Assembly: GCA_018262705.1 (NCBI GenBank)
Contig: JADFDQ010000009.1
Span: 1-64,000 of the forward strand
Direction of reading: 5' to 3'
DNA length: 64,000 bases
From: Xanthomonas sp.
Lineage (GTDB): Bacteria; Pseudomonadota; Gammaproteobacteria; Xanthomonadales; Xanthomonadaceae
The notes under the pieces: model-generated
The model's input: the letters and a program-made list of their open reading frames with translations, nothing else
What the model was told of the DNA's origin: nothing
Database searches by the model: none
Made by a program: the position numbers and the translations under genes
In this document: piece after piece, positions 20,105 through 55,867 of the stretch
Position numbering within the stretch: the stretch's first letter is position 1
Layout: every line of letters begins with the position of its first letter

Positions 20105-20923
20105 ATGAAGCAACTCGTCCTGTCCGTTCTGATCCTGCTTGGCGCCAGCCTGTCGGCCTGCGCGCAACCGGCTGCGGCGCCGGCAGCGGGAACCCGTCCC
20201 GCACCGGAAGCGGCGCAAGCCGCGGGCGAGCCTGCGTACGCGCCTGGAACGCCCGAACAGCGGGTGCGCGAGGCGCTGCGGACGCTGGATCCACGGATCA
20301 CCGTCGAGCACATCGGCCCGGCACCGATTTCCGGTTTCCGCGAGGTCATTGCGGCCGGGCAGGCGGTCTATGTCAGCGATGACGGCAAGTACATGTTCTC
20401 GGGTGGGCTGCTGGATCTGCCGCGGCGCACCAGCCTGAGCGAAGCGGCGATGGCCGGCGTGCGCAAGTCGATTCTAGCCACGCTGCCGGAATCGGATCGG
20501 ATCGTGTTTGCGCCGAACGGCCCGGCCCGCCACACCGTGGTGGTGCTGACCGACATCGAGTGCGGGTTCTGCCGCAAGTTCCATTCCGACATCGCCAAGT
20601 ACACCGCGCTCGGCATCCGGGTCGAGTACCTTGCTTTTCCGCGTGCCGGCCTGGGCAGCGACGACTACCGCAAGATGGTGGCGGTCTGGTGCGCGCCCAA
20701 CCGCCGGAAGGCGTTGACCGACGCCAAGAACGATCGCCCGGTGCCGAATACCGCCTGCGCGCGTACGCCGGTGGACATGCAGTACCGCGCCGGCCAGCGG
20801 ATGGGACTGGAAGGCACGCCGATGATCCTGACCGCCGACGGCAAGCTGCTGGGCGGCTATTTGCCGCCGGATCAGCTGCTGCGCCGCCTGGATGCCCTGC
20901 AGGCCGGGACGACTTCCGGTTGA
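20105..20923 (+). CDS. DsbC-type thiol:disulfide interchange lipoprotein
   Basis: DsbC-type isomerases repair wrong disulfides in the periplasm. The 272-residue protein has a signal with a lipobox-like end (GASLSAC, Cys19), so it may be a lipoprotein, which classical DsbC is not. Residues about 45-130 form the DsbC dimerisation domain ([34 protein letters not shown]). The thioredoxin-like domain has the active site C153-G-F-C156 and the cis-proline loop EGTPMIL. The ATG at 20105 is preceded by GGTGGA. Position after xerD matches dsbC of other gammaproteobacteria. Confidence 0.88.
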
Positions 20924-20990: not shown

Positions 20991-23900
20991 ATGATTGCCC
21001 TCGAGGGCGCGCCTGCTCTGTCGCCGTTCCGTCGCGACCGCCTGCAAGCCCGCCTGCAGACCCTCGTTCCCGCGCTGCAGATCGTCGGCAGTTGGCATGG
21101 GTACTGGATCGAACCCGAACCTGGCCGTGCGCCGGATGTGGCGGCGCTGTGCCGCATCCTGCAGGCTGCGGTTGAGTTGGCGGCGCCGGCCGAGGGCGCC
21201 ATGACCCGCTTCGTCGTGCCTCGCCTCGGCACGCTCTCGCCCTGGGCCAGCAAGTCCACCGATCTGCTGCGAGGCGCCGGCTTGCCGGTGCGCCGGGTCG
21301 AGCGCGGGATGCGGATCGACCTGACCGGCTGGCCGCAGGATCCGGCGGTGCAGGCGGCGCTGGCAAAACTGCTGCACGACCCGATGACGCAGTCGCTGCT
21401 GGCGACGCGCGCAGACGGATCGGCCCTGTTCGGCGCGCTGCCGGCCGGCGCTGTCGAAGTGATCCCGCTGGCGAAGCTGGAAGTCGCCAATGCGCGGCTC
21501 GGGCTGGCGCTGGCGGAGGATGAAATCGCCTATCTGCGCGAACGCTACGGCGAGCTTGGGCGCGATCCGCACGACGTCGAACTGATGATGTTCGCGCAGG
21601 CCAATTCCGAGCACTGCCGGCACAAGATCTTCAACGCCAGTTGGACCCTCGACGGCCAGCCGCAGTCAACCTCGCTGTTCAAGATGATCAAGCACACCCA
21701 AGCCGCCACGCCGCAGCACGTGCTGTCGGCTTACAGCGACAATGCGGCGGTGGTGGAAGGCTATGCGGCGTCGCGCTGGCGGCCCGACCCGCACAGCCGG
21801 CAATACCGCGGCGAACCGGTCGCCGAATCGGCGTTCTGCATCAAGGTCGAAACCCATAACCATCCCACTGCAATCGCGCCGTTCCCCGGCGCGTCCACCG
21901 GCGCCGGCGGCGAAATCCGCGACGAGGGCGCCACCGGCCGCGGCGGCCGACCGAAGGCCGGGCTGTGCGGGTTCTCGGTGTCGCATCTGCGCATACCGAC
22001 GCTGGGGCAGCCGTGGGAAGGCGAGCGCAGCCTCAATCCGCGCATGGCCAGCGCGTTTGAAATCATGCGCGACGGCCCCCTGGGCGCCGCCGCGTTCAAC
22101 AACGAATTCGGCCGGCCCAACCTGGCCGGCTATTTCCGCAGCTTCGAATTGCGCGAGGCGGACGGGCTGACCCGCGGCTACGACAAACCCATCATGCTGG
22201 CCGGCGGTCTGGGCGCAATGGATCGCATCCAGGTGGAAAAGCTGCGGCTGTCGTCCGGCGATGCGGTGATCGTGCTCGGCGGCCCGGCGATGCTGATTGG
22301 TCTGGGCGGCGGCGCGGCGTCGTCGGTGGCCTCCGGCGATTCTGCCGAGGACCTTGATTTTGCCTCGGTGCAGCGCGACAACCCGGAAATGGAACGGCGT
22401 GCGCAGGAAGTCATCGACTGCTGCGTGGCGCTGGGCGCGGACAATCCGATTCTGTCGATCCACGACGTCGGCGCGGGCGGGCTGTCGAACGCCATTCCGG
22501 AACTGCTGCACGACTCCGGCGTGGGCGGCGTGATCGACCTTGGCAAGGTGCCGACCGACGATCCCTCGCTGTCGCCGATGCAGCTGTGGTGCAACGAATC
22601 TCAGGAGCGCTATGTGCTCGGCGTTGCGCCCTCGCGCCTGGCCGAGTTCGAAGCATTGTGCCGGCGCGAGCGCTGCCCGTTTGCGGTGGTGGGCGTGGCG
22701 ACGGCGGAAGAACATTTGCGCGTGGGCTATGGCGGTCAGCCGCCGGCCATCGACTTCCCCATGGACGTGCTGTTCGGCAAGCCGCCGAAGATGCACCGCG
22801 ACGCCGTGACTCCGCCGCGGCCGCGCTGGCCGCAGCTCGAAACCGACGCGCTGGAGCTGCGCGAGGCCGGATTGCGGGTGCTGGCGCACCCTTCGGTGGC
22901 GGCGAAGTCGTTCCTGATCACGATCGGCGACCGTGCGGTCGGCGGCCTGACCGCGCGCGATCAGATGGTCGGGCCGTGGCAGGTGCCGGTGGCCGATTGC
23001 GCGATCACCTATTCCGGTTTCGACGGTCTGGCCGGCGAAGCGATGGCGATCGGCGAGCGCACGCCGCTGGCGCTGCTGGATGCCGCCGCGTCGGCGCGGA
23101 TGGCGGTCGGCGAGGCGATCACCAATCTGATGGCGGCGCCGCTGGAGGCGCTCGACCGGATCAAGCTGTCGGCCAACTGGATGGCCGCCGCCGGCCATGC
23201 CGGCGAGGATGCGCGGCTGTTCGACGCGGTCAGGGCGGTGGGCATGGAACTGTGCCCGGCGCTGGAACTGGGCATACCGGTCGGCAAGGATTCGCTGTCG
23301 ATGCAGGCGGTGTGGCAGGAGAGCGGGAACCGGGAACCGGGGACCGGGGACCAGAGACGGGAAGAAGATCAGACAGCCCGAACGCTGTCTTCGAAGCTGG
23401 AGCAAGGCGATGGGGAAGCTCTTCCCCGGTCCCCGGTTCCTGGTTCCCTGTCCCCTGTCAGCAAAACCGTCTCCCCCGTTTCCCTCATCGTGACCGCGTT
23501 CGCGCCGGTGCTTGACGTGCGCGGCCAGCTCACGCCGCTGCTGCAACGCGAGGTGCCGTCCGAGCTGTGGCTGATCGGGCTCGGCGGCGGGCGTCAGCGC
23601 ATGGGCGGTTCGATCCTCGCCCAGTGTTTTCCGGACGCCAACGGCGCGGCCGCGCTGCCGGCGTTCGGCGGGGCGGCACCGGATCTCGACGATCCGCAGC
23701 GCCTGCGCGCGCTGTTCGACCTGATCCGCGCGGCGCGTTCCGAAGGGCTGCTGCTGGCCTACCACGACCGTTCCGACGGTGGCGTGTTTGCCAGCCTGTG
23801 TGAAATGGCGTTCGCCTCCCATCTCGGCCTCGATATCCAGCTCGACGGCTGGGGCGAGGGCCGCACCGGCGATCCGCTGCGGGTGCTGTTCAACGAAGAA

Positions 23901-41903: not shown

Positions 41904-41967
41904 TGCTTCCGGCTTCCGGTCCCCGGTTCCCGGTTTCCGGTTTCCGGTTTCCGGTCCCCGATCCCCA
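41904..41967. repeat. CCGGTTCCCGGTTT-type repeat between glyA and nrdR
   Basis: Units of CCGGTTTCCGG and CCGGTCCCC are repeated across the whole gap, with three tandem copies of GGTTTCC in the middle. The unit matches the right arm of the element in purL. The repeat ends three bases before the nrdR ATG, leaving no Shine-Dalgarno sequence there. Confidence 0.85.
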
Positions 41968-55015: not shown

Positions 55016-55837
55016 ATGGACGGGACCGGAACGCTCTTTGTGGTTGCCACCCCGATCGGCAATCTGGGTGACCTGTCGCCGCGTGTGCAGGACACCTTGC
55101 GCGGCGTGGCCGCGATCTGCGTCGAAGACACCCGCCGCAGCGGGCAGCTGCTGGCCCACTTCGGGATCAGGACGCCGCTGCTCGCCCTGCACGAGCACAA
55201 CGAGGATGCCATCGCGGCCAAAATCGTCGCCCGCATGCTGGCGGGTGATTCCCTCGCGCTGGTATCCGATGCCGGCACGCCGCTGGTCTCCGACCCCGGT
55301 TTCCGGCTGGTGCGCGCCGCACGTGCGGCTGGCATCAAGGTCAGCCCGATTCCCGGTGCCAGCGCGCTGATCGCCGCGCTCAGCGTTGCCGGGTTGCCCA
55401 GCGATCGCTTCGTTTTCGAAGGCTTCCTGCCGGCCAGGGCGGCGGCGCGCCGCGAGCGGTTGCCGGGACTGGCCGCGGAGGCGCGTACGCTGATTTTCTA
55501 CGAAGCCTCGCATCGGATCGAAGAAACGCTGGCGGACATGGCGCTGGCGTTCGGCCCGCAGCGTCCGGCAGTGCTGGCGCGCGAGCTGACCAAGCTGTTC
55601 GAAACCGTGCTTGACGGCACGCTGGCCGAGCTGCTGGCGCGCGTGCAATCCGATCCCAACCAGCGCAAGGGCGAATTCGTTGTGCTGGTGCAGGGCGCGG
55701 GTGAAGACGTCGATGCGAAATTGATCGAAGGGCGCAGGTTGTACGCCAAGCTGTGCGAACACCTGCCGCCGTCGACTGCAGCGAAGCTGGCGTCGGAACT
55801 GTCTGGCGCCCCGCGCAAGGCGCTGTATGGGGGATAG
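55016..55837 (+). CDS. rsmI: 16S rRNA (cytidine1402-2'-O)-methyltransferase RsmI
   Basis: RsmI 2'-O-methylates C1402 of 16S rRNA in the P site. The 273-residue protein has LFVVATPIGNLGDLSPRV, CVEDTRRSGQLLAHFGI, LVSDAGTPLVSDPGFRLV, IPGASALIAALSVAGLP and FYEASHRIEETLADM, an almost full family set. The ATG at 55016 is set by the family start; the frame extends left across the divergent promoter. The TAG stop lies in the first bases of a GGGGACA repeat. Confidence 0.97.
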   Translation: MDGTGTLFVVATPIGNLGDLSPRVQDTLRGVAAICVEDTRRSGQLLAHFGIRTPLLALHEHNEDAIAAKIVARMLAGDSLALVSDAGTPLVSDPGFRLVRAARAAGIKVSPIPGASALIAALSVAGLPSDRFVFEGFLPARAAARRERLPGLAAEARTLIFYEASHRIEETLADMALAFGPQRPAVLARELTKLFETVLDGTLAELLARVQSDPNQRKGEFVVLVQGAGEDVDAKLIEGRRLYAKLCEHLPPSTAAKLASELSGAPRKALYGG

Positions 55838-55867
55838 GGGACAGGGGACAGGGGACAGGGGATCAGG
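55831..55867. repeat. GGGGACA tandem repeat after rsmI
   Basis: Three tandem GGGGACA units follow GGGGATA, which contains the rsmI stop codon, and a GGGGATCAGGAG tail. It belongs to the same G-rich style as the repeats at 23325 and 28034. Confidence 0.8.

Follow-up and report, generated by a model that had tools for sequence, protein, structure and literature searches.

The closest described counterparts of the element analysed here are the GGGAATC-type heptad repeats of Xanthomonas (Rehm et al. 2015, PMC4692102). According to the main text of that report, these are G-rich 7-nt units with a preference for four units, are defined as a family by at least one GGGAATC unit, occur as inverted pairs (70 in one genome and 75 in another) and are spread genome-wide, mostly in intergenic positions. 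The same text gives 83% of sites as common to two species, with extensive variation of length and sequence, 7-11% of repeats as overlapping ORFs, and formation of G-quadruplexes in vitro by oligonucleotides of related repeats; purL is not named in it, and dnaE appears once, as repeat-associated. Palindromes of 100-150 bp in frame within genes are known as Rickettsia palindromic elements (RPEs; PMC3767692, PMC10969869). In the passages of these two accounts used here, the same site is occupied in orthologues, though some of these have no typical element there or may have one of another group, and RPE-encoded stretches lie in solvent-exposed areas; the proteins modelled included the alpha chain of DNA polymerase III. 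REPINs, as characterized in the cited passages of PMC3116915, are inverted doublets of REP sequences with a spacer that form a hairpin, occur in many copies and are tied to RAYT genes.

We analysed a 64,000-nucleotide stretch of DNA from Xanthomonas sp. (contig JADFDQ010000009.1, positions 1 to 64,000; hereafter the window), in which the purL gene carries a palindromic insert (Table 1). Like the Xanthomonas repeats, the insert consists of tandem 7-nt units with G-tracts (about four) arranged as a convergent inverted pair, and the family is dispersed mostly outside genes. Unlike them, as defined in the main text of PMC4692102, it lacks the GGGAATC unit and has AACC/GACC units instead, and here a full pair lies in frame in both PurL and DnaE, with unit types that follow the genome. 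Judged by their sequence, the units of the insert are best regarded as a variant of the Xanthomonas heptads. With RPEs the insert shares its nature as an in-frame palindrome in a preexisting gene and the occupation of the same site in orthologues, but it occurs in other bacteria, and heptad arrays and a genome-wide following of type are absent from the cited passages of the RPE accounts (PMC3767692, PMC10969869). Both a REPIN and the purL element are inverted doublets with a spacer hairpin in many copies, although the latter is made of heptad arrays and no RAYT link was found for it. Homing introns and inteins spread between allelic sites and carry little flanking DNA along. Unlike these, the insert is about 0.1 kb long and no endonuclease was found, and we know of no splicing of a heptad insert. 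In open-licence PubMed Central text we found no earlier account of a heptad or palindromic insert in PurL or DnaE of xanthomonads. Heptads and in-frame palindromes are already known kinds of sequence; the novelty lies in fixed sites whose unit type changes, from which we infer replacement. A first, sequence-only reading of the window had likened the insert to RPEs, which stands as regards an in-frame palindrome in a protein gene; it missed the kinship of the heptads with those of Xanthomonas, the wider occurrence of such inserts (PurL in 9 genus codes, and DnaE) and the type change at fixed sites.

Table 1. Positions of purL, the parts of its insert and related heptad arrays in the window
Feature	Position	Strand	Remarks
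purL, about 1339 aa	20988..25007	+	open throughout; in-frame ATG also upstream at 20892 (ORF list)
purL insert, left arm	23325..23352	+	GGGAACC GGGAACC GGGGACC GGGGACC (4 heptad units)
purL insert, spacer (hairpin loop)	23353..23422	+	GGGGAAGAGC motif readable on minus strand beside right arm, by eye
purL insert, right arm	23423..23455	-	4 units at 23428-23455, minus strand: GGGGACA GGGAACC AGGAACC GGGGACC
purL inverted repeat, widest extent	23313..23460	.	38-nt arms, 87% complementary (23313-23350 / 23423-23460)
array of the purL-insert heptad family directly before nrdR	41918..41966	-	site occupied in other genera too, unit types varying by genome
single five-unit array GGGGATA/GGGGACA/GGGGATC	55830..55864	+	one covering ORF scanned, no Pfam match

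The core arms of the insert (23325-23350 / 23423-23448) pair at 25 of 26 positions. This agrees with the 26-base inverted arms with one mismatch described in the sequence-only reading, whose span of 23325-23448 was correct for the core and left out the outer arm bases; the open frame that it reported, without stop or shift across the insert, was likewise found. RNA folding of 23304-23472 gave -101.5 kcal/mol vs -68 +/- 4.7 kcal/mol in 200 shuffles (z -7.1; 0/200 as stable), and four G-tracts are present per arm. An Rfam scan of the insert returned no match up to the gathering score and only weak microRNA-precursor matches, which are explained by the hairpin. At the protein level, PurL residues 782-827 are without counterpart in the solved PurL 4r7g (gap between its residues 798 and 803), and a Pfam domain stretch stops at residue 782. 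We measured the PurL loop between GKDSLSM and VSPVSL in 80 named loci and 109 family loci, with 38 named loci (L129-L167 without L151) as outgroup. The loop of this genome's predicted PurL has 55 residues vs 13-15 in 37 of the 38 outgroup loci, so that about 42 residues are extra; the sequence-only reading had put roughly 45 extra residues at about 778-824.

The genome of the window (G000; 2.49 Mb, 24 contigs) has Thermomonas among the closest named PurL loci (best match 84%). The two-unit pattern GGGAACCGGGAACC (at most 1 mismatch, overlaps counted) has 77 matches genome-wide vs 4 for the reversed control, which bears out the proposal that the insert belongs to a dispersed repeat family of this genome. 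GGGAACS doublets number 42 in this genome, and none of the other 33 among the 34 genomes counted has more than 1; GGGACCS doublets number 54 here (control: 5), and GGGAATSGGGAATS has 0 matches in this genome, the purL insert being built of GGGAACC/GGGGACC units. The purL insert belongs, as an in-frame copy, to a family of palindromic heptad elements scattered over the genome and is built of units typical of that genome. The kindred repeats that the sequence-only reading placed between genes at 41904 and 55831 correspond to the two arrays outside purL in Table 1, the second of which is a single array.

Heptad arrays lie mostly outside genes: 2 of 28 array clusters fall between Pfam domains of one protein (31 covering-ORF entries, 28 scanned), and these proteins are PurL and DnaE. 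A genome-wide check for arms inside other coding frames, which the sequence-only reading had proposed, thus yielded DnaE as a second host; in three more genes, called carB, prs and nuoE here after the Pfam domains they encode, the array precedes every domain, and 7 further array regions are located outside this 28-cluster ORF scan. The second in-frame heptad pair lies in dnaE of G000 (L003, G000:C4:56287-57786, minus strand), where, in the alignment with the solved DnaE 5fku, residues 502-547 of the partial DnaE fall into a gap between 5fku residues 580 and 582. DnaE was searched in 30 genomes, 29 of which were parsed (G274 left out). A heptad insert is present at the same DnaE loop in 5/29 genomes (G000, G019, G043, G267 and G233), a loop of 38 residues without heptads in 2/29 (L291 of G022 and L294 of G015), and the anchors are 23-28 residues apart in 22/29. 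The DnaE insert of G022 (L291) appears palindromic by eye.

The count of relatives with and without the PurL insert was run on 109 family genomes, which are not a random sample: 49 loci came from a search with the insert-bearing query and 60 were hand-chosen, 20 of those because one match spanned the insert, and the top ranks of carriers among the 49 searched loci are due to the insert in the query. Heptad arrays occupy the PurL loop in 51 genomes (20-59 residues), in 50 the loop has ≤16 residues, and in the last 8 it is 17-34 residues long with no recognised heptads. The PurL loop of L198 (G151) has 34 residues without recognised heptads. Carriers belong to 9/27 genus codes and include two with one arm (L210, L243). 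Stop codons are found in 0/51 inserts, and both arms are of the same type in 47/51 vs 19.7 expected under within-genus shuffling. Among the 80 named loci, heptads were judged by eye and seen in L090, L097, L103 and L105; none were seen in the long loops of L130 (32 residues, the outgroup exception) and L151 (49 residues). A native variable loop, which the sequence-only reading had set against its own proposal, is ruled out as sole account of the insert by the outgroup lengths, and what stands of it is that the loop is permissive within the family (the 8/109 genomes with 17-34 residues). On a tree from flanking purL DNA (a quick one, with 37/106 inner branches unresolved), insert presence requires at least 12 changes, gain and loss not being separable. 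No clean empty site or target-site duplication was seen among five alignments.

Unit types at purL were labelled by hand, some of them by eye. On the same tree they require 29 changes vs 27.2 for shuffled labels; purL heptad type has no phylogenetic signal. The purL type was compared with the doublets counted in each genome for 30/34 genomes (dropped: G019, whose type was not counted, G021, G022 and G151). The mean share of the purL type among the counted doublets of its genome is 0.545 vs 0.364 when shuffled within genus (0/20000 as high), and 0.541 vs 0.363 with purL's own matches removed. It is the commonest counted type in 19/30 genomes and not the commonest in 11/30, and it is absent from its own genome in 0/30 vs 3.3 expected (p 0.009). 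These results show that purL unit type follows the genome's own repertoire. The element before nrdR, typable in 26/30 genomes, has the purL type in 20/26 vs 9.4 expected (0/20000 shuffles as high), and the types disagree in G000, G043, G203, G290, G081 and G299; in G000 an AACC/GACC mixture is present at both sites. The two loci are not independent because they are linked (about 19 kb apart here, 19-63 kb in others compared). In G041, purL and nrdR have ATT, whereas three other sites have AAT, these three as typed by a multi-site procedure that missed weak arrays and gave a mixed result (5/15 sites in two genomes only). Co-ordination of types across the genome is partial.

Changes at orthologous sites were followed in two pairs of genomes that are sisters on the purL tree (G087/G139 and G081/G107), using 200-kb stretches with aligned blocks mostly 94-99% identical (one 89.5%) and leaving 1/18 and 2/17 clusters unplaced. 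Types differ at 12/25 orthologous sites (7/12 and 5/13), purL among them in both pairs. In G087/G139 the 7 differing sites are always AAT in G087 vs ATT in G139, and the others are mixed in one genome (3), mixed in both (1) or ATT in both (1). In G081/G107 the 5 differing sites are AAT vs ACC (3) or ATT (2), and of the others, both genomes have ATT at 3 and a mixture at 3, one genome has a mixture at 1, and 1 is absent from one genome. Of the remaining 13 sites over both pairs, 4 kept one type, 8 have mixtures (4 in both genomes and 4 in one only) and 1 is absent in one; the comparison rule scores mixed-in-both as same, yet site 98685 of G081/G107 went from AAT to ACC.

Flanks were examined for 10 distinct changed elements (one site skipped, two neighbouring sites counted twice). 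Divergence is 1.5% at 21-50 bp, 1.9% at 201-400 bp and 4.65% at 401-800 bp; the 1-20 bp figure was not used because the rule leaves almost no differences <15 bp from the element. The 1.5-1.9% from 21 to 400 bp indicates that no wide divergent tract surrounds the changed elements, and at 2/10 (175356 and 115057) a divergent zone extends tens of bases into one flank. The four same-type sites have flank divergences of 3.8-10% and are not a clean control. Seven pairs of different-type elements with flanks ≥0.977 identical (2 at purL and 5 at nrdR; g7, g18) have element identities of 0.53-0.78, and some same-type purL elements of distant congeners are 0.92-0.96 identical with flanks at about 0.90. 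Mean identity is 0.73-0.86 where both elements have the same type and 0.54-0.63 where they do not, and the two kinds of pair overlap. Same-type identity is 0.63-0.78 for ACC pairs and can fall to 0.45 (nrdR, G172/G299). Spacers are more alike between orthologous sites than between other sites (p 0.003 for 8 pairs, leaning on one pair with an overlong spacer; p 0.037 for 6 pairs).

The account that we consider probable, with some reserve, is that the element sits in a permissive PurL loop and persists as tolerated, mostly selfish DNA whose arms are rewritten repeatedly. It is a pair of facing arrays, each of about four GGGNNNN units, with a spacer between them, in frame in that loop. Its persistence as tolerated DNA would be owed partly to most unit types being stop-free in every frame and partly to the repeated rewriting of its arms from other copies or incoming alleles, an element-limited exchange that would be homing-like in effect; pairing of the arms as a hairpin and possible G-quadruplex folding perhaps aid replacement. 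Selection on PurL would then remove only versions with stops or frameshifts. The insert looks like a protein-invading and probably selfish palindrome with copies replaced at fixed sites, since its type follows the genome and the nrdR element and 12/25 orthologous sites changed in surroundings mostly 94-99% identical. The flanks of changed elements, at 1.5-1.9% divergence from 21 to 400 bp, speak against ordinary homologous recombination between species with the element as a passenger of flanking gene DNA, as do 12 changed sites in two 200-kb stretches, each AAT in the first genome; this explanation is unlikely in our view, although it would accommodate the divergent zone in one flank of 2/10 changed elements and the purL element of G087/G294, which is 0.958 identical with flanks at 0.903, set beside that of the close pair G087/G139 (0.784, flanks 0.982). 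Purely local change, by heptad slippage and hairpin-templated copying of arms with no exchange between loci, would suit the agreement of arms in 47/51 inserts and the likeness of orthologous spacers, but it is at odds with a type that follows the genome repertoire and a second locus and with the recurrence of same-type alleles in distant congeners, and we regard it as very unlikely.

A function for the insert, whether in purL mRNA (regulatory hairpin or G-quadruplex) or through a role of the loop in PurL, might be suggested by the very stable hairpin, the four G-tracts per arm and the in vitro G-quadruplexes reported for oligonucleotides of related repeats in the main text of PMC4692102; given that 50/109 genomes have a short loop, that several unit types serve and that DnaE is also a host, it is highly improbable. 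If the element were REPIN-like and a REP-associated tyrosine transposase (RAYT) moved it, its form as a dispersed inverted doublet with spacer and hairpin would fit, yet 0 GGG-type arrays were found in 21 loci (2.2-3.3 kb) around Y1_Tnp matches where about 3-6 were expected, and we give this origin almost no credence. In that scan 20/21 matches were over the cut-off, in 13/14 genomes, the expectation came from the density of four other stretches, and GTGATT-type arrays are hardly visible to it; a RAYT link for the heptad arrays is unsupported. It counts against the replacement that we favour that the analysis turned up no enzyme and no donor copy, nor any clean empty site or duplicated target. 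More tentatively, and as a possibility that we would not expect to prove right, an unrecognised active process may rewrite heptad palindromes at fixed sites, including those in essential genes, in a concerted, homing-like and element-limited manner without an element-encoded enzyme, by which each genome would drift towards its own repeat types. A large Xanthomonas-related family joins the few cases of in-frame protein palindromes, with PurL and DnaE as recurrent hosts, and the heptad repeat class becomes a testable case of concerted evolution; because close genomes differ in type at the same sites, replacement might be caught in strain collections.

Most unit types are stop-free in every frame and GTGATT units are not, as reasoned from the units. 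In 9 coding arms of GTGATT type (7 in purL and 2 in dnaE; L105 repeats L195, L103 is close to L200, and L191 fits the register poorly), the unit where TGA would be in frame is without TGA. The TGA-removing base is the only mismatch in 28 in 3/9 arms (purL of G019, unit 3; dnaE of G019 and G267, unit 2), and intact 3.5-unit GTGATT arrays occur in 7/8 genomes searched (2 to 145 matches). The missing TGA is no more than suggestive of selection for coding, since an open frame demands its loss anyway and 5 arrays that lie in neither purL nor dnaE have the same base change.

The motif AA(A/G)AGC is found on the inner side of 14/93 G-rich arrays vs 1.4 in shuffles, and on the outer side of none, which hints at a common architecture of G-rich arrays. 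Two long arrays (L011 1452-1633 with 26 units and L019 1417-1563 with 21 units) show a one-step switch from GGGAACC to GGGGACC along the array. Contigs C12 and C20 of G000 end in heptad arrays, the C8 array lies about 140 bases from the end of its contig, and several contigs of G267 start with heptad arrays; assemblies seem to break at heptad arrays.
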